From positions 1-64,000 of the forward strand of contig JAMCVZ010000006.1 of assembly GCA_023476565.1 (NCBI GenBank): 64,000 bases of DNA, read 5' to 3'. The stretch is from Nitrospirota bacterium (GTDB taxonomy: Bacteria > Nitrospirota > Thermodesulfovibrionia > Thermodesulfovibrionales > Dissulfurispiraceae). Positions 2,993 to 11,112 of this stretch are shown piece after piece (position 1 is the first letter of the stretch; every line of letters begins with the position of its first letter). The notes below the pieces were generated by a model. The model worked only from the letters and a program-made list of their open reading frames with translations. It was not told the DNA's origin and did no database searches. The position numbers and the translations under genes are program-made.

Positions 2993-5137
2993 TTACTTTA
3001 TCTTATAGCCAGGTTCGGCGCTCAGGACTTCGGGCAGCGCCGAAAATTCCTTCAACGCACTCTCAACAGTCTGCCCTGCCCTCGGCCTGATTTTGTAAAC
3101 TTTCGTGCTCTCCGTAAATCCCGTTACCGATGCGTCTTTCTGTGAAATCAGCGCGAGCGCTTTATCGGCGGGAACATCCTCTTTGAACTTAACTGAAAGC
3201 TCTCCATCCGCATGCACGAGCCTGCCCTGGCCCTCTCTTGAAAACTCCGTTTGCTTGTCCCGGGTGATTTGGGCAAGACTTTCTCCCTCTTTGACCAGAT
3301 GCGGGGTAATGAACACCATCAGGTTTGTTTTCTTCTTTGATGTGCTTTTCGATTTAAAGAGCCAGCCCAGGCCAGGGATATCTCCGAGCACAGGAACCTT
3401 TGTCGTCGTCTGCTCGTCCCGTTCCTGCATGAGCCCTCCGATAACCACCGTCTGCTTGTCCCTCACCACGACGGAGGTCTTTGTAGAGCGTTTTGTAATG
3501 GTTGGGCCGACATTTATCAAAATAGCATCCGACTGCTGCTGCAGGGATGAAATCTCCTGATATATGTCGAGCTTTACATAGTCTCCTTCGGTTATCTGCG
3601 GTGTTAATTTAAGTTTGATGCCCACATCCTGCCTTTCAATGGAGTTCAGGACAGTATTGGTCGTCGTAATATCCCGCTCCCTCTTTGAGATGAAAGGGAC
3701 ATTCTCTCCCACGAGTATTTCCGCTTCTTTGTTGTCCGAGGTAAGGATCTGGGGTGTTGAAAGTACATTTACAGCATCCTTGAATTCATCAAGATTAAAG
3801 ATAGCCGCGAGGCCGGGGACGGTCATATCAGAGGTAGCGCCGGGAATAAAATCCTTGGGGATGGTGAAATATTTGCCGACTCCGCCAAGCGTGAGCCCTG
3901 CCAATCCTGTTACGATGTTCTTAATTGTTGATTGATCCACCTGTCCGACACCCCCGACAAATATGGGCTTCCCGTTTTTGGTCGCCGCTCCCCTGAACTT
4001 TGTCCCGAGTTCAAGAAGGTTGTCCACAGATATCTCGGCAATCATAGCTTCGACAAAAACCTGTTTTCTCCTTTTGTCGAGCTGCTTTATTATCTGTGCA
4101 AGGTTCTGATAATCGGCAGGCGATGCGACGACTACAAGAGAATTGGTCGCCTTGTCGGCCGTAATGGTTATGCCCCCTGCCGCTTCAAAAGGCGCAACAG
4201 GCGCACCCTGCCCCCCCAACTGTCTTGACGGCTGCATACCTCTGAGCATTCCTTCCATAACTTTTGCCAATTCAACGGCATCGGCGTTTTCAAGAAAATA
4301 AACATTCACCCTCCCCTGGGCCTCCGGAGAGGGGACATCAAGAAGTCTGATGAGCGACTTTATCGCTTCCCGGGCGCCTTTATCTCCGAAGAGGACCACG
4401 GCATTCAACCTGGTGTCAGCTACAGCCTTTGCCTCCTCGGTCGCATACGCCTGCTGGCCAATCCTGGGCTTGCGGCTCATTCCCTCATTGAGCATCTTAG
4501 CAACGGCGTCCGCACTCGAATGTTTAAGGAGGATTATCTCGGGCTCTTCCGATGAGTACGGCTGGTCAACTGTCTCAATGATAGAGAGGACCTTCTCAAT
4601 ATTAAGCCCCGAGTCAATCACCAGGAGCATATTGGCCGGCCCGAAAGCTGATATATAACCGTCTTTTGAAATAACGGGCTGTATAAGCCTGAGCGCATCA
4701 TCTGATGAGATGCTTTTCAGCTTTATAAGCCTCGCGATATAACTGTCATTGACCGACCTGTCCTTCGTAACTTTTATACCCTTTTGTTTTGCCTCTGCCG
4801 TAGGGATAATTTTGAAGGCGTCGACGCCTGACGGCACAACCATATAGCCTTTCAATTCAAGCACCGAGACGAAGAGGTTATAGGCGTCGTCAATGCTCAA
4901 TTTTGATGGGGTGATAATCGTTATTTTTCCTTTAACCCTCTCATCGAATATGAAATTCTTTTTGGTGATCTCGCTTATGAATTTCGTAATGGCGCCGAGG
5001 TCGACATCGACAAAATTGAACGATACCTTCTGGTCGCTAGGCTCTTTTTTCGTTGCAGCAAAAGTCTGTTCCGCGGGGAAAAAGCACAACGTTATGCATA
5101 CCAGGAGGATGAGAGACAGAAACTTGTTTCTTTTCAT
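2993..5137 (-). CDS. gspD: Type II secretion outer-membrane secretin GspD
   Basis: The 714-residue product starts with a cleavable signal peptide (basic MKRNK, hydrophobic run, cleavage near the Ala-Ala of EQTFAAT). An N0 domain (VSFNFVDVDLGAITKFISE), repeated N1-N3 domains and a C-terminal secretin domain with VPVLGDIPGLGWLF and TNLMVFITPHLV follow. It forms the gated outer-membrane channel. About 85 residues follow the secretin core, where other GspD proteins carry the pilotin-binding S domain; this tail (VKFKEDVPADKALALISQK...) looks like an extra small domain. The gene sits between gspC and gspE. Confidence 0.96.
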   Translation of the reverse strand: MKRNKFLSLILLVCITLCFFPAEQTFAATKKEPSDQKVSFNFVDVDLGAITKFISEITKKNFIFDERVKGKITIITPSKLSIDDAYNLFVSVLELKGYMVVPSGVDAFKIIPTAEAKQKGIKVTKDRSVNDSYIARLIKLKSISSDDALRLIQPVISKDGYISAFGPANMLLVIDSGLNIEKVLSIIETVDQPYSSEEPEIILLKHSSADAVAKMLNEGMSRKPRIGQQAYATEEAKAVADTRLNAVVLFGDKGAREAIKSLIRLLDVPSPEAQGRVNVYFLENADAVELAKVMEGMLRGMQPSRQLGGQGAPVAPFEAAGGITITADKATNSLVVVASPADYQNLAQIIKQLDKRRKQVFVEAMIAEISVDNLLELGTKFRGAATKNGKPIFVGGVGQVDQSTIKNIVTGLAGLTLGGVGKYFTIPKDFIPGATSDMTVPGLAAIFNLDEFKDAVNVLSTPQILTSDNKEAEILVGENVPFISKRERDITTTNTVLNSIERQDVGIKLKLTPQITEGDYVKLDIYQEISSLQQQSDAILINVGPTITKRSTKTSVVVRDKQTVVIGGLMQERDEQTTTKVPVLGDIPGLGWLFKSKSTSKKKTNLMVFITPHLVKEGESLAQITRDKQTEFSREGQGRLVHADGELSVKFKEDVPADKALALISQKDASVTGFTESTKVYKIRPRAGQTVESALKEFSALPEVLSAEPGYKIK

Positions 5138-5323
5138 TTCGCTTACCCTTCACTATCCTTACATCCGGAGTAGAGACATCTCAATTGTTTTTACAAGCAG
5201 GATTGAAATTCAGGCTGTTATTATATTTTAACCAAAGTAAAACTTCAACCCGTTTACTGTCGGATAATAACCGTTTCCGTTGGCTCTTTAAACACCGGTA
5301 CTGCCAAAGAAGCCTCATACTTT

Positions 5324-6208
5324 TTATTTTATCTGATAAGTCATCGTCACCTTGGCGCCGTTCCTCATAATATCGAGCTGCGCCCTGTCCATACCCCTTA
5401 ATGCCGTAAAAGCCTGGAGCGCTCTCTCAGGATTTGAAATGCTGAACTCGTTAATCCGTAAAAGCACATCTCCATTCTGAAGGCCGAGGCTCTGATAAAT
5501 CCCGCCCGGCTTTACCTCGCTTAACATAAAACCCTGCTGTTTGCCGTCAACAATACGCGGCAGCAGCCGGGCATCGGTCATGATCTGGTTCGGCTTCTCT
5601 ATTGCCTGCTGAACCTTTCTCTGGTCAACCACATATGATCCGTCTCCGACATTTTCTGCAAAAGTTGCCGGTTTATTGCCTGGGGAGGGCTTTGCATCCA
5701 CTATGCTGAGGAAATCCGCTACCGGTATCTCTACCGGAGCGCCTCCGCCCTTTATATATACTTTATCCTTTTCGATCCGCTGGAGCACTCCATAACCGAG
5801 GACCGCATCACCGATCCTGTATACTTCCTGATTATTGCTTTTATCCATAAATATGGCATAACTATATTTACGCGGACCGGAAACGGTCCCGACAAGCGTC
5901 AGTCCGGACATGTCGGATTTGGGTGCGGATTGATTTGTTGCAGTCGCATAGAGCGGTTTCAGTTCACCGGGAGGGCCGAATGGATTATTTCTGACAACGG
6001 GCGCATATTCCTGAAAGCTCTTTTTTGATATCCGGGCCGTCGTTTGTGCAACGGCGGCAGGTTTTATTATCTTCTTGCCGGACAGGGAAATGATATCTCG
6101 TGCGAGGATAAGGATAGAAATGACAAGCAATGCACCCATTATCACATTAAGCATGCTTGCCAGTCCGGGGACGCCGGATTTCAATCTGTCAAATATTTGA
6201 ACATTCAT
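5324..6208 (-). CDS. gspC: Type II secretion inner-membrane/PDZ protein GspC
   Basis: The 294 residues comprise a short cytoplasmic N-terminus, one membrane helix (about 17-40), a periplasmic homology region (NPFGPPGELKP, LTLVGTVSGP, YRIGDAVLGYGVLQRIEKD) and a C-terminal PDZ domain (GFMLSEVKPGGIYQSLGLQNGDVLLRIN, about 215-290). GspC links the inner-membrane platform to the GspD N0 domain. It is the first gene of the operon in the window, 186 bp upstream of gspD. That gap contains no gene. Confidence 0.93.
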   Translation of the reverse strand: MNVQIFDRLKSGVPGLASMLNVIMGALLVISILILARDIISLSGKKIIKPAAVAQTTARISKKSFQEYAPVVRNNPFGPPGELKPLYATATNQSAPKSDMSGLTLVGTVSGPRKYSYAIFMDKSNNQEVYRIGDAVLGYGVLQRIEKDKVYIKGGGAPVEIPVADFLSIVDAKPSPGNKPATFAENVGDGSYVVDQRKVQQAIEKPNQIMTDARLLPRIVDGKQQGFMLSEVKPGGIYQSLGLQNGDVLLRINEFSISNPERALQAFTALRGMDRAQLDIMRNGAKVTMTYQIK

Positions 6209-6295
6209 GAGAAACCGTGATTAATGTAGCGCCTTAGTGCCTTCTTTGTCAAGAAAAGAAGAATGCGGGGACCAGAGATAAAGTTTCTGATCTTT

Positions 6296-6385
6296 GGTAA
6301 AGGGGACGTTTGGTAAAGGGGACGGTTCTATTTATTTATTTTTTTCTCCCGGTGGGACACGGTAAATAGAACCGTCCCCTTTACC
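6296..6385. repeat. REP-type palindrome, 23-bp perfect inverted repeat
   Basis: Bases 6312-6334 and 6363-6385 are perfect reverse complements (core GGGGACGGTTCTATTTA and its complement). A further partial copy of the left arm starts at 6296. The arm core is the same as the inverted repeats flanking the transposase element at 7113-7881, so this is probably a non-autonomous copy. It lies downstream of the TonB-like gene and upstream of gspC, and could fold into a long hairpin in the transcript between them. Confidence 0.85.
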
Positions 6386-6399
6386 CGATGGAAATCTTT

Positions 6400-7146
6400 C
6401 TACAGCGCCTCTATGCCGACTACAGGGATACCATTTGCTATGGTAATTTTAAGGCTAAGGCCTTTGTATGCAAGAAAATAGTTGGAAGGCAGAGGCACAG
6501 CATGCCAACTGATCTTCTCAAGTGTATTCTTCAATTCCTCCGATTCAGAGGAGACATTGACTATTTTTAATTTCCCGTTCTCGTCATACTCGAGTTTTAC
6601 GATAGCGGAGGAGCCGTTTAATGCATTACGCTTTCCTTCATTTGCTTCGGAAAAGATAAATGACAGTATCGACAGGCGGGCGTTTTTGAAGAAAGCCTTG
6701 ATATGAAATATCAGGAACTGGAGATTAACCCTGGCTGCCATGGCATCCTGCATCTGCTTTGCCTGCATTTGCACCTGCTCATTCAGCGCTTTTAAAGCGT
6801 CCTCCGATTTTTTCGTATCAGCGCTCTCTGCTATTTCATTTTTAATTTCTTTTGGTTCAGCAGGAATACTCTCTTCTTTCCTCTGTTCAGGAACGGCGCT
6901 TGGGGCAGTCCACTCTCTTGCGGCATCTTGCACGCCGGCAGACGGGAGCTGCAATTCCTTCTCCTCCAGGACTATATCTACATCCATCTTCCATTGTTTG
7001 GGAACGGATGGATTATGTAATCCGGCCCTCTGGAGATTCAAACCGATAAGGGTGATGAGCAGCAGATGAATAACGATTGAAAATGGAAGGGATCTGAATA
7101 GTAGCCTGGCAGTAAATGGGACGGTTCTATTTAATTCTTTCTCCAT
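6400..7146 (-). CDS. TonB-like energy transducer protein with transposon-derived start
   Basis: The 248-residue product has an N-terminal membrane helix (about 17-36, FSIVIHLLLITLIGL), a Lys/Glu/Pro-rich periplasmic linker with an alpha-helical Ala/Gln/Met stretch, and a C-terminal domain (VKLEYDENGKLKIVNVSSES, then the ISWHAVPLP region) resembling TonB C-terminal domains. It probably spans the periplasm; a partner is unknown. Residues 1-11 are read from the end of the transposase element and its inverted repeat, and no other ATG, GTG or TTG is apparent before the membrane helix. The native start therefore seems lost and replaced. The TonB assignment is by pattern and is moderately certain. 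Confidence 0.6.
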   Translation of the reverse strand: MEKELNRTVPFTARLLFRSLPFSIVIHLLLITLIGLNLQRAGLHNPSVPKQWKMDVDIVLEEKELQLPSAGVQDAAREWTAPSAVPEQRKEESIPAEPKEIKNEIAESADTKKSEDALKALNEQVQMQAKQMQDAMAARVNLQFLIFHIKAFFKNARLSILSFIFSEANEGKRNALNGSSAIVKLEYDENGKLKIVNVSSESEELKNTLEKISWHAVPLPSNYFLAYKGLSLKITIANGIPVVGIEAL

Positions 7147-7881
7147 CCCTTCTGCCTGCCTCTCGGCCTTGTAACATCCTGTACCTTATACTTCGATACT
7201 ACTTCTTTCGTAAATTGCTCATTTCCATATACTACCCTTCTGCTCATCTCTCCCCTCATCGCATCCTTTTCCCTCAGCATTCCTTTCACAAATTCCCTGT
7301 ATCTCTTTCTCCGCTCTGCTTCATCATTTGATAACTGCTCATATATCGGATGTTCATCAACTGCGCTATCCCGTCTTCCATATGCATATACTCCATAGCT
7401 GCTCCATCTGTAATCCCCTGAATTCCCCCCTATCCCCGCCCTTACAGGATTCAACTCTACATAACTGCCGCAGGCAAGCAGATAGTCATCCTTTGATATA
7501 AGGATGCTTTTGTATCTATCTTGCCAGAAGTGTCCTATATGTTTATACCTGCTTTTGTAATATTGAGCATACGAGAGGTTTATCCCTTTCATTATCTCCG
7601 ATAGATCGCCCCCATCTTCTGTTGTCTCAAGTACCAGATGAACATGGTTGGTCATTAATACATAATGATAAAGTTTATATCGATACTTCTCTTTATACTT
7701 AAGGAGTATATCTCTATATTGCCTGTAGTCAGAGTCATCTTTGAAAATGTGCTGACGGTTATTCCCCCTTGTCAGCACATGATAGATATGCTCTTTCGGT
7801 GCTATCCTTGCTGTCCTTGGCATGACTGGAGATTACTACCTTCCCTCTCATTTTGTCAATTAAATAGAACCGTCCCATTTA
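7113..7881 (-). mobile_element. RAYT (REP-associated transposase) element with 24-bp perfect inverted repeats
   Basis: The 769-bp unit is bounded by 7113-7136 and 7858-7881, which are exact reverse complements over 24 bp (core GGGACGGTTCTATTTAATT). The transposase gene fills the interior and its stop codon lies inside the left repeat. The unit interrupts the 5' end of the TonB-like gene and abuts the UPF0175 gene on the other side. The same repeat core occurs without a transposase at 6296-6385 and, as a half copy, at 8761-8780. Confidence 0.85.
7131..7823 (-). CDS. REP-associated tyrosine transposase (Y1/HUH family)
   Basis: This 230-residue single-strand DNA nuclease has the IS200/IS605-like Y1 fold. 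It starts with RIAPKEHIYHVLTRGNNRQ, carries the metal-binding HUH motif His60-Val-His62 (MTNHVHLVLE) and the likely catalytic tyrosine Tyr85 (INLSYAQYY), and continues with GHFWQDRYKS and YVELNPVRA, both typical of RAYT proteins. These enzymes are known to bind and nick REP palindromes. All key residues are present, so it may be active. The basic C-terminal tail (RPRGRQKGWRKN) is typical. Its 3' end overlaps the first codons of the TonB-like gene. Confidence 0.93.
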   Translation of the reverse strand: MPRTARIAPKEHIYHVLTRGNNRQHIFKDDSDYRQYRDILLKYKEKYRYKLYHYVLMTNHVHLVLETTEDGGDLSEIMKGINLSYAQYYKSRYKHIGHFWQDRYKSILISKDDYLLACGSYVELNPVRAGIGGNSGDYRWSSYGVYAYGRRDSAVDEHPIYEQLSNDEAERRKRYREFVKGMLREKDAMRGEMSRRVVYGNEQFTKEVVSKYKVQDVTRPRGRQKGWRKN

Positions 7882-7885
7882 TTTT

Positions 7886-8197
7886 TTATTTGTGTTTCTT
7901 TTCTTTCCGTTTTGCTTCTATTAATGAAATTGCCTTAAGGGTCTCATAGGCTCCGACATTGCCTGATATTTCCATATCCCAAAATAGTTCAAGGGCCTCT
8001 CTTGCAGGAACACTCAAAACATCGGCAGCCTCGCGCAGGCTGATCTCCCCCCGCGCATAAAGCGCTCCTACATATCTTTCAGCTCCAAGCCTCAAAAATT
8101 TCCTCAGCGTGGTCGGCTCATCAAGTCTCTCTTTTTTTTCTGCAAATCTCACCGCATCCAACAGGCTGTCAGGCAGCCTCAATGCCTTTGCTTTCAT
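7886..8197 (-). CDS. UPF0175 family protein, probable antitoxin
   Basis: The 103-residue product begins with a short strand-helix segment (LRLPDSLLDAV). The core has the UPF0175 signature: a helix, YARGEISLREAADVLSV and a helix-turn-helix-like end (REALELFWDMEISGNVG). The tail is lysine-rich. It overlaps the stop of the PIN-domain gene by 4 bp (ATGA), so the two are co-translated. UPF0175 proteins commonly accompany PIN-domain toxins, and antitoxin is the likely role. Here the putative toxin is first in the operon. The start codon sits inside the PIN stop. Confidence 0.75.
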   Translation of the reverse strand: MKAKALRLPDSLLDAVRFAEKKERLDEPTTLRKFLRLGAERYVGALYARGEISLREAADVLSVPAREALELFWDMEISGNVGAYETLKAISLIEAKRKEKKHK

Positions 8198-8682
8198 CGA
8201 ATCTCCTCCATATAGAACTTCGATATTACATATTCATCTTTACTGATAAACGGCCTCAGACGCTCTATCATTGCAAGGGCTTCGGATTTCTTTATATCCA
8301 TCACCTTATAAAGATAAACTACACAGACCGCAGGGGTCAGATACGGGATACCCGCAGTATCAAGTTTCTTTAAAAACTTTCTGTCATCACTGGCAACTGC
8401 GTCGAAATCACCTCTCAAATAAAGAGACACGACCTCTTCTTCTCCTTTTGCGGCAGGCACGATTATGGAACCCTTTTTCACATGCCTGGCGACATGCAAA
8501 ACATTCCTGCCTATATTTTCTTTAATGATACCGGCATCCTGGTAATTTTTATTTACAACATCATCAACTGTTTCTTTCTTGACAAGATATGGGATATATA
8601 CCTCCATCGCTGAAACAACCGCTTCTTTAATGCCGGCTTTTGTAAGTTTAACAAGGCAATCCGAATCCATTACGATCCTCAT
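8194..8682 (-). CDS. PIN-domain protein, probable toxin ribonuclease
   Basis: The 162 residues carry the acidic PIN pattern: the first strand RIVMDSD (Asp6, Asp8), a central Glu in GEEEVVSLYLRG, and DFDAVASDDRKFL toward the end of the fold. PIN proteins in such pairs are usually metal-dependent RNases. A promoter (TTGACA, 16 bp, TACAAT) ends only 7 bp before this ATG, so either the mRNA is leaderless or translation starts at Met5 (8670), which has GAGG upstream. Because the first beta strand would be cut by the later start, I keep 8682. Confidence 0.7.
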   Translation of the reverse strand: MRIVMDSDCLVKLTKAGIKEAVVSAMEVYIPYLVKKETVDDVVNKNYQDAGIIKENIGRNVLHVARHVKKGSIIVPAAKGEEEVVSLYLRGDFDAVASDDRKFLKKLDTAGIPYLTPAVCVVYLYKVMDIKKSEALAMIERLRPFISKDEYVISKFYMEEIR

Positions 8683-8689
8683 GTCTTAT

Positions 8690-8717
8690 ATTGTAAGCTT
8701 TCTGATACGATTGTCAA
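8690..8717 (-). promoter_or_regulatory. Sigma-70-type promoter for the PIN/UPF0175 operon
   Basis: On the minus strand a perfect TTGACA (8712-8717) is followed after 16 bp by TACAAT (8690-8695). The predicted transcription start is close to 8683, directly at the ATG of the PIN gene. Confidence 0.65.
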
Positions 8718-8760
8718 TACTTTGCCAGGAGGCATAGAGCGGGAATGGCAATGAAAGGGA

Positions 8761-8780
8761 AAATAGAACCGTCCCATTTA
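8761..8780. repeat. Half copy of the RAYT inverted repeat
   Basis: AAATAGAACCGTCCCATTTA matches 20 bp of the right end of the RAYT element exactly, but no partner arm is nearby. It lies between the PIN gene promoter and the terminator of the exported-protein operon. Confidence 0.8.
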
Positions 8781-8786
8781 TTTGAA

Positions 8787-8818
8787 AAAAGGGGCATGCC
8801 CTGCGGCATGCCCCTTTT
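8787..8818 (-). terminator. Rho-independent terminator, 14-bp perfect stem
   Basis: Arms 8787-8800 and 8805-8818 are perfect complements with a 4-nt loop (CTGC). On the minus strand the stem ends in a T run. It lies 26 bp downstream of the stop of the exported-protein gene. A's precede the stem too, so it could work in both directions. Confidence 0.88.
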
Positions 8819-8843
8819 GAACACAGGAGTTGTTTTGATTCTC

Positions 8844-10622
8844 TTAGTCCATATTAGGCTGCGTGAGCAGCTTGATCATGGCCTTTTTCTCTGCAGCGGT
8901 CGGGCTTCCGGTAATCTTGCCTGCAAGAGCATTCATCCTCGTCTGGAAAAGCAGTTTGGCGTCCTTTTCCGCTTGACGCGTCGGCTGCTTGCCATTATTG
9001 TAGATATCGAACTTGCTGAACTCGATGATGTGCATATCGTCCATGATGCCTTGATATGCATTGAACGCGGCGCTCGGAGTATTATATGTCCGCCTTTGCA
9101 CAGTCCAGGTATTGCCACTGCCTTGGCAGCTCGACATATTGAAGTATTGATTTGAAACGCATGCCGTCCCGTTCCACGTCATCCCCATCCCGGTGCAGTT
9201 ACCTTGATTTTTGCCGGGTATAGTGCATACTCCCATCCACTCTTGCATCATGGTTGGAATTGCAAGGGTATCCCTCGTGTAGTCCATTGTGCCGCCGCCG
9301 CTGATAAGCTTCGCCAGCCATGTGACCATAACGGTCTGCGGAATAGGCCAGTTCACCTTTGTCTGCCCCGATGAGCTGAATTTCATGTATGTGCCGAAAT
9401 CATCCGGCAAGTAGTTTGCATTGAAGTTGGGCATTTGTTTCTGCATGGCCGCGACAACGGCAGCTTTCATAGGAGTAATATCTGTAGTAGTATCTGAGGC
9501 CATATTGGTCTGAAAGGTCTCGAAGTTGGTCCTGAACTCGGAGTCAATAGCTGTCCTGATCTGATCGGCGGTTGTCCCGGGATGCTTGCTGAGGTAGTCG
9601 GTCGGGTTCATGAAGAATTCGCCGTATGTTGATTCAGTAGCCGCAAAACTGTTCAGCATGGTTGTCACCGCGCTCGTGAACTTGTCCACCTGGGGTCCTG
9701 TTGCTTTCAGCGCATTAAGAGCATTGGTATACTCGGACTGTACTTTCACTCCGGCGATGCGCTGGAAGAAAGAGTCCATGGATTGGCCCAGCGAGGTCCT
9801 GACGCTGGAGCTGATCTGCGCCATGCGCGCGGCATTCGTCGGGTTTTCCGCAACGTCTCCTGCGGCATCGTGCGCGGCGAGTATCAGGTTGGGGTCGATG
9901 CCCGCTGCCTCGGCCGCATCCATGAAGACATCGGCCATCTGGCCGCCGGCCTTCGACATTTCCTGTGTTGCCTTTGTTGCATCACCGCTGTCGACGGCAT
10001 CCTTGAAACCCTTAGTCAGATCGGTTATGGTCTTTTTGCCCGGGGTTGCGTTATAAATAAGCGCTTTCTTGAAGGCAAGGAGTTGTGCTGCGGTTACGCC
10101 GTTCGATGTAAGGAAGCCTTCAAAGCCGCTATTGCCCGTAATGGCATCGGCGCCCAATGCAGCAAGCAGTTGCGCATCAGTCGATGTTGCGCCCGGCGAG
10201 CGGAGCAGGGTTATGAGATAGGCGATGGCTATCGGGTCGTCGCTCTTTAAAACCTTCCCTGCCTCGAGGATCGCGTTCGTCTGTGCTGTGGAGAGGTCGT
10301 TGACGCCTACCAGATTTGTGCTCCCTGCATGGGCTGCAGGCACAAAGCCCCTGCGGACTACAGTGCCGTTTTTGTCTTTAATGATAAAAACAAAGAAATT
10401 GGCCTCTGCATCAGTCGGCATGCCGGTCAGGCTGAAGCTCAGCTTGCCGTTGCTGTCCGCGGTGGCAGTTGTAGCGCTGTAATCGCTTGCAGTGCCGTCG
10501 CTGTTGACCTTCTGTATTGTTATAGTGTATTTCTCACCCGAAGTAAGGGCGGCGTATAGCTGATTGCCGCTTATCAAGAGCACAGCAATCATAAGAAGTG
10601 TTAATTTGAAAAATCTCTTCAT
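8844..10622 (-). CDS. Large exported protein of unknown function
   Basis: I do not recognise this 592-residue protein. It has a classical signal peptide (MKRFFKLTLLMIAVLLISG, cleavage near LYA-ALTSG). An N-terminal segment of about 80 residues looks beta-sandwich-like (YTITIQKVNSDG, then KLSFSLTGMPTDAEANFFVFIIKDKNG), and a long Ala/Thr/Ser-rich, mostly helical body follows. Four cysteines close to one another (VCTIPG, GNCTG, TACVSN, SSCQG, roughly 465-505) could form two disulfides. It follows the small lipoprotein gene by 37 bp and ends at a strong terminator. Extracytoplasmic location is well supported; any link to the type II secretion system 2 kb away is only a possibility. Confidence 0.7.
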   Translation of the reverse strand: MKRFFKLTLLMIAVLLISGNQLYAALTSGEKYTITIQKVNSDGTASDYSATTATADSNGKLSFSLTGMPTDAEANFFVFIIKDKNGTVVRRGFVPAAHAGSTNLVGVNDLSTAQTNAILEAGKVLKSDDPIAIAYLITLLRSPGATSTDAQLLAALGADAITGNSGFEGFLTSNGVTAAQLLAFKKALIYNATPGKKTITDLTKGFKDAVDSGDATKATQEMSKAGGQMADVFMDAAEAAGIDPNLILAAHDAAGDVAENPTNAARMAQISSSVRTSLGQSMDSFFQRIAGVKVQSEYTNALNALKATGPQVDKFTSAVTTMLNSFAATESTYGEFFMNPTDYLSKHPGTTADQIRTAIDSEFRTNFETFQTNMASDTTTDITPMKAAVVAAMQKQMPNFNANYLPDDFGTYMKFSSSGQTKVNWPIPQTVMVTWLAKLISGGGTMDYTRDTLAIPTMMQEWMGVCTIPGKNQGNCTGMGMTWNGTACVSNQYFNMSSCQGSGNTWTVQRRTYNTPSAAFNAYQGIMDDMHIIEFSKFDIYNNGKQPTRQAEKDAKLLFQTRMNALAGKITGSPTAAEKKAMIKLLTQPNMD

Positions 10623-10659
10623 ACCGAAAACCTCCTTGAATTACTTTTCGATGTTTATC

Positions 10660-10818
10660 TTAGTTGGCGCTTCCACTCACTCCTCCTGTTGTGCTACTGC
10701 CGCTTGATGATGAGCCGGTTCCTGTAGTTCCCCCGCCTCCTCCGCCGCAGCCTGAAATCAGCGTTAAAGCACAAAGCATAGCAATAGTCCCGATTAAAGC
10801 AAAAATCTTTTTCCTCAT
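10660..10818 (-). CDS. Small Gly/Ser/Thr-rich lipoprotein (52 aa)
   Basis: A basic start (MRKK), a hydrophobic stretch and the lipobox ISGC place the lipidated cysteine at residue 24. The mature part is only 29 residues, beginning with six glycines and then Gly/Ser/Thr only. The start has GGTGAG a few bases upstream. It is the first gene of a two-gene unit with the exported 592-residue protein. Mature low-complexity lipopeptides this short are hard to assign; it may be a tether or spacer-like lipopeptide. Confidence 0.65.
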   Translation of the reverse strand: MRKKIFALIGTIAMLCALTLISGCGGGGGGTTGTGSSSSGSSTTGGVSGSAN

Positions 10819-10876
10819 AATTTCTCACCCCCCTTTCTCTTGATCCAGTTTTTTTGCAATAAATTGTATTGCTGAT

Positions 10877-10905
10877 ATCTTAAAGTTATACATATTAATA
10901 GTCAA
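10877..10905 (-). promoter_or_regulatory. Possible promoter of the lipoprotein/exported-protein operon
   Basis: On the minus strand TTGACT (10900-10905) is followed after 17 bp by TAAGAT (10877-10882), giving a leader of about 50 nt before the lipoprotein ATG. The surrounding 10819-11112 is AT-rich and contains no gene that I can see. Confidence 0.4.
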
Positions 10906-11112
10906 GGAAGATATTACCATAATTATATCGGCGTTTATAGAGAATATCTTAAGCAAGCAAAAGGAATGCCATAATGTACCACTTTGATTAATATGGAAAT
11001 TATTCTCTATTGTATGGTATTTTTCTACCAGGCTTCCCCTCGTATTGCTGATATCCGGTTAGCAAGCCTCCCCTTTCCAACGGCTTCTCCTGCCGGCCTT
11101 CTCTGAAAAGAG

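Follow-up and report, generated by a model that had tools for sequence, protein, structure and literature searches.

A transposase element as the probable source of the start codon of a TolA/TonB-like gene

The window (the whole stretch of DNA analysed, 64,000 nt) contains a TolA/TonB-like open reading frame (ORF) whose first codons lie inside an adjacent element of the RAYT/TIRYT type, encoding a Y1/HUH tyrosine transposase. It is probable (roughly 0.6) that this element supplanted the native start of the gene, which subsequently decayed, and that the gene is now read from an ATG (position 7146) situated within the last codons of the transposase gene. The coordinates of the relevant features are summarized in Table 1.

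Table 1. Features of the junction between the element and the TolA/TonB-like gene, and of the adjacent DNA (window coordinates).
Feature	Position	Strand	Match or remark
gspC, next gene downstream of the TolA/TonB-like ORF	5324..6208	-	NCBIfam GspC_delta, 162 bits
Promoter-like site just 5′ of gspC	6223..6252	-	TTGACA-18-TACATT
Mini-element: two inverted repeat copies (arms of 23 nt, spaced by 28 nt) in the gap from the TolA/TonB-like gene to gspC	6312..6385		Other copies in genome
TolA/TonB-like ORF, 248 aa, element-derived N-terminus	6400..7146	-
AGG at the native start position, codon 14 (Arg14)	7105..7107	-	Differs from ATG by one base; lies five bases beyond the element end
Terminal inverted repeat, 3′ end of transposase gene	7113..7136		Contains transposase stop and codons 4-11 of the TolA/TonB-like ORF
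Y1/HUH tyrosine transposase gene, RAYT/TIRYT kind, 230 aa, intact	7131..7823	-	Pfam Y1_Tnp
Sole upstream in-frame start codon (ATG), inside transposase gene	7144..7146	-	Earliest in frame
Putative Shine-Dalgarno stretch (GAGGCAGG region), inside transposase gene	7154..7162	-	Placement approximate
TTGACA, -35-like box of the element's own promoter, pointing to the transposase and TolA/TonB-like genes	7854..7859	-
Terminal inverted repeat 5′ of transposase gene	7858..7881
UPF0175-like small protein, stop near the far end of the element	7886..8197	-	Pfam UPF0175, 18.1 bits, below cut-off
162-aa partner ORF, possibly a PIN-like toxin (inference)	8194..8682	-	No Pfam match
Lone repeat copy 5′ of the two-gene pair	8761..8780

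The element is bounded by two arms of 24 nt each (7113-7136 and 7858-7881), which are 100% complementary, and both of its ends read TAAATGGG. The TAA stop codon of the transposase gene falls within the former arm. The TolA/TonB-like ORF (6400-7146) begins 13 bases 5′ of this stop codon, in another frame, so that it overlaps the transposase gene (7131-7823) by 16 nt, and it reads through the repeat. A previous, sequence-only reading of the locus had placed the left repeat in the first codons of the gene, the ATG within the end of the transposase gene and the origin of the first 11 residues in the element. The junction (ATG GAG AAA GAA TTA AAT AGA ACC GTC CCA TTT / ACT GCC AGG CTA; the slash follows codon 11) bears this out: codons 1-11 and the first base of codon 12 belong to the element, where one or two end bases may represent a duplicated TA target, the boundary being uncertain by 1-2 bases. 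The same reading correctly noted the lack of ATG, GTG or TTG codons between the repeat and the membrane helix, as the next TTG is codon 36, at the end of the transmembrane (TM) helix, and the next ATG is codon 54. In-frame fusion was rejected as being remarkable by itself: one of the three frames is open through the repeat, which gives an in-frame exit a chance of about 1/3.

In a profile search of the 177 genomes of the order, 13 other genomes yielded homologues of the TolA/TonB-like protein whose N-terminus could be read, and one fragment was found in addition. An ATG or GTG codon was found exactly 13 residues before the conserved TM His in 12 of these 13 homologues, while the remaining one (genome G136) starts two residues earlier; in genomes G042 and G077 there are extra ATGs two and four residues earlier. 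The window protein aligns without a gap to the homologues through the start segment (e.g. TLPLSMALH versus SLPFSIVIH), and the start column corresponds to Arg14. None of the 13 element-free homologues, among them that of the sole congener analysed (G001), begins at the residue encoded by ATG 7146; 12 have their start at the AGG column and the thirteenth has it two residues earlier, in each case downstream of the element-derived residues. Since the homologues begin 13 residues before the TM His, the element-derived residues constitute an addition, and the native start is unusable. The claim that this start had been lost and a new in-frame one gained was thus upheld as regards the unusable codon (AGG), but not as regards its removal by the insertion, because the start column survives five bases beyond the last base of the element (7113). 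Given that 18% of the codons of the ORF are one step from ATG, the argument for decay of the start rests on the alignment column and not on the codon alone. The AGG is probably a mutated start; an assembly error is less likely.

The genetic organization of the locus in G001 is the same, without the element: a gene for a 592-aa secreted-protein homologue is followed by a two-gene toxin-antitoxin-like pair, the TolA/TonB-like gene (with an ATG 13 residues before the His) and then, on a second contig, gspC-gspD-gspE. In more distant families, the TolA/TonB-like gene is located directly after that of the 592-aa homologue. The slot between these two genes is filled by a toxin-antitoxin-like pair in the two congeners alone, and the proteins are unrelated between them: the window (7882-8843) has the UPF0175-like protein and the 162-aa ORF, L035:5375-6026 encodes an AbrB-like and a PIN-like protein, and pairs are absent in other families. 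When the window flanks are joined without the element, the stop codon of the UPF0175-like gene is followed by 12-14 nt and the old start. A strong palindrome (GGGGCATGCCctgcGGCATGCCCC) with a T-run lies behind the 592-aa gene (window 8790-8820), and visual inspection showed a similar hairpin in the corresponding position in G085 and further families.

The 20 bases preceding ATG 7146 have an anti-Shine-Dalgarno pairing energy of -8.2 kcal/mol, compared to a median of -4.05 for the 34 long ATG ORFs of the window; by this crude measure, in which spacing was not enforced, such a score is reached by 3.6% of all 2259 ATGs in the window. The corresponding value at the AGG (7107-7105) is +0.4. Beyond the element, the remaining 235 codons of the ORF contain neither a stop codon nor a frameshift, and the branch length of the protein (0.69, versus 0.77 for the G001 sister) indicates no faster evolution. 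The gene thus shows no trace of prolonged neutral drift. The TTGACA box occupies the same place in most related elements; no consensus -10 sequence for it passed a promoter scan of the window copy. A scan of the minus strand between the transposase and TolA/TonB-like start codons found no terminator-like site. Translation from the element is favoured, indirectly, by the combination of a single upstream start, a good Shine-Dalgarno sequence, an intact ORF, a normal branch, the orientation of the TTGACA box and the absence of a terminator-like site, and ongoing translation from ATG 7146 is likely on these grounds.

The order of events, as we infer it, would have been as follows. A TIRYT/RAYT-type element inserted co-directionally into the spacer of about 13 nt that separated the UPF0175-like gene from the start codon of the TolA/TonB-like gene, which was thereby cut off from its leader. 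Located five bases from the end of the element, the native ATG would then have become AGG, and the gene would now be read from the ATG and Shine-Dalgarno sequence inside the last transposase codons. Re-initiation at ATG 7146 by ribosomes that terminate at the transposase stop codon, 13 bases downstream, is conceivable, and expression of the gene may be coupled to the transposase transcript, as the sequence-only reading proposed. The predicted product would consist of the native protein preceded by 11 element-derived and two leader-derived residues, with Arg replacing the initiator Met. If this is true, the gene has become dependent on a resident transposase gene while its original start has visibly decayed, which would offer a possible way for RAYT/TIRYT genes to be retained over long periods. 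Start-site annotation near such elements is unreliable.

Three other explanations were considered. It is conceivable, if rather doubtful, that the insertion and the start change silenced the gene, i.e. that the ORF is a young pseudogene whose frame is open into the element by chance. The one-in-three odds of an open frame, the perfect repeat arms (suggestive of a recent insertion) and the absence of the gene from most genomes of the family agree with such a history, but the 235 uninterrupted codons, a rate of evolution no higher than that of the sister copy and a donated ATG with an unusually good Shine-Dalgarno sequence speak against it. That the AGG represents a sequence error or a rare allele, the native ATG being intact and the upstream extension an annotation artefact, is very unlikely. 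The genome is indeed a draft of 73 contigs and the AGG differs by one base from ATG exactly at the native start column; however, consensus errors at any one given codon are rare, and with no Shine-Dalgarno sequence 5′ of the AGG, an ATG at this site would probably be poorly read as well. Finally, the version given in the sequence-only reading, in which the element physically took the place of a native start that was situated further upstream in this lineage, could appeal to the earlier start in G136 and the extra ATGs in G042 and G077, but is highly improbable in view of the start at the AGG column in 12 of the 13 homologues and of the stop codon that the joined flanks place a few codons 5′ of the old start, in the same frame.

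The preferred reading, in which the start supplied by the element took over from the native one, raises the issue of whether related elements carry a similar start. The 3′ ends of relatives whose transposases are 61-72% identical were compared. Among 20 distinct elements in which the right repeat could be read, one outward frame (NRTVPF) is as a rule open, and 12 of the 20 have an ATG in this frame within their last 61 nt. Five downstream ORFs extend beyond an element by more than 250 nt, each in the M..NRTVPF frame: the window gene, two rpsA-like genes (Syntrophales), a short ORF in L088 that has kept its native start, and an orphan HTH-like domain in L079. At L065:3673-4971 and L067:3686-4933, whose downstream genes we take, from their recognizable sequence, to be rpsA, an element of the same type is located 40-91 nt 5′ of the gene with its ATG in frame, and the native ATG and Shine-Dalgarno sequence are kept; since the upstream flanks differ, the two insertions look separate. 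In L079 (genome G002, reverse strand, about 2186-2575), the element ATG opens in frame into the orphan domain directly behind the element, and this domain resembles the HTH tail, of the DnaA_C type, that a longer Y1 transposase would carry. Odds of about 1 in 80 to 1 in 240 apply to four or five ORFs sharing a frame by chance, but the comparison was post hoc and the sample small, so that the agreement is to be taken as a lead rather than a result. That the transposase family carries a built-in portable start, i.e. a terminal ATG plus the open M..NRTVPF frame, by which co-directional insertion can replace the start of a gene and couple its translation to that of the transposase, is an unlikely, speculative generalization.

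The repeat was also examined outside the element. The window contains 10 strand-wise matches (five sites), compared to 0.03 expected, and the 2.67-Mb genome contains 22 sites, compared to none for a reversed control. Several of the genomic copies form inverted pairs 50-100 bp long. One of them, the mini-element at 6312-6385, could form a transcript hairpin separating the TolA/TonB-like gene from gspC. Beside several mini-elements (window 6296-6324; L014, L018 and L020), the outer end of the repeat is partly tandem-duplicated (GGTAAAGGGGACG), and these duplications are possibly traces of repeated insertion or slippage. An Rfam search of window positions 5000-11000 gave no match.

The transposase was assigned to the Y1 class by Pfam (Y1_Tnp, 61.8 bits versus a cut-off of 23), and its NCBIfam REP_Tyr_transpos score (77.8 bits) is slightly below the cut-off of 80; among PDB entries, TnpA-REP (4er8) was matched with E=0.0097. 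No relatives were found among viral contigs. The sequence-only reading had called the element a RAYT. The flanking inverted repeats agree with that name, but the GTAG foot of REPs is absent, and the TIRYT class fits better. The defining trait of REPs associated with RAYTs is a hairpin that has GT[AG]G at its foot (PMC2817692, PMC6006769), and the repeat in question, TAAATGGGACGGTTCTATTTAATT, has neither GTAG nor GTGG at its foot. Like RAYTs/REPtrons with REPINs (Nunvar et al. 2010, PMC2817692; PMC6006769), the element has a single-copy transposase (full-length in one copy in the genome) with low intragenomic similarity to other Y1 genes (≤39% identity), inverted flanking repeats and scattered inverted repeat pairs; unlike them, it has a weakly folding repeat, whose AT-rich hairpin with two G-T wobbles forms mainly on one strand, just 22 repeats and an NCBIfam score below the cut-off. 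TIRYTs are RAYT-like genes with terminal inverted repeats that are unrelated to REPs, can overlap the 3′ end of the gene and are also present as dimers at other genomic sites (Di Nocera et al. 2013, PMC3733652). In the window, a RAYT-like gene is likewise flanked by two inverted repeats of a non-GTAG family present elsewhere in the genome, partly as dimers, and one of these repeats overlaps its 3′ end. The element differs from TIRYTs in two respects. The GGGGWSAS motif, common to some but not all TIRYT repeats (PMC3733652), is not matched exactly, the window (TGGGACGG) and its relatives (mostly GGGGACGG, one mismatch) being one or two letters off, and the 230-aa protein has no Pfam match to an HTH tail, the C-terminal domain characteristic of TIRYT subclass 2.1 (PMC6006769). 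On balance, the element appears to suit the TIRYT/TIRtron description better than that of RAYT/REPtron.

The 248-aa ORF had been described as TonB-like. The envelope-type TM helix with Ser-x3-His, almost invariant in the first TM segment of a 14-row alignment, supports this in general terms (a Ser and a His four residues apart are the motif of the TonB/TolA transmembrane helix), but not TonB specifically, the resemblance to TolA being at least equal. A single-sequence model (pLDDT 64) predicted a TM helix (residues 22-43), a disordered linker, a long helix and a C-terminal strand-strand-helix-strand-strand domain, and the top Foldseek match of this low-confidence model was the TolA C-terminal domain (probability 0.99, E=0.03). 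A PDB sequence search gave no identification, and one of 14 relatives has a weak Pfam TonB_C match (E=0.089). The label TolA/TonB-like seems fair, with TolA slightly preferred. The predicted protein shares with TonB/TolA-type envelope proteins, besides the TM helix, a long charged linker/helix and, judging by the model, a small C-terminal alpha/beta domain that may have the TolA C-terminal fold; unlike them, it has no Pfam match and is encoded beside type II secretion genes, directly 5′ of gspC, gspD and gspE. Dependence of these genes on the transposase transcript was considered and set aside, gspC having a promoter-like site of its own.

Bacterial genes are known to receive promoters, stop codons and internal peptides from mobile elements. 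The window locus would be a single example of mobile DNA giving a protein its beginning, and as such a variation on the transfer, already known, of coding sequence from repeats to genes. In the literature searched, coverage of which was incomplete, stop codons and internal peptides are reported, and no report was found of an element of the RAYT/TIRYT class supplying a start codon. REP ends are known to supply TAG stop codons, and intragenic REPs are coding (PMC3733652). In both cases repeat sequence becomes host coding sequence; in contrast to REPs, the element described here would give its neighbour a start codon and an N-terminus.
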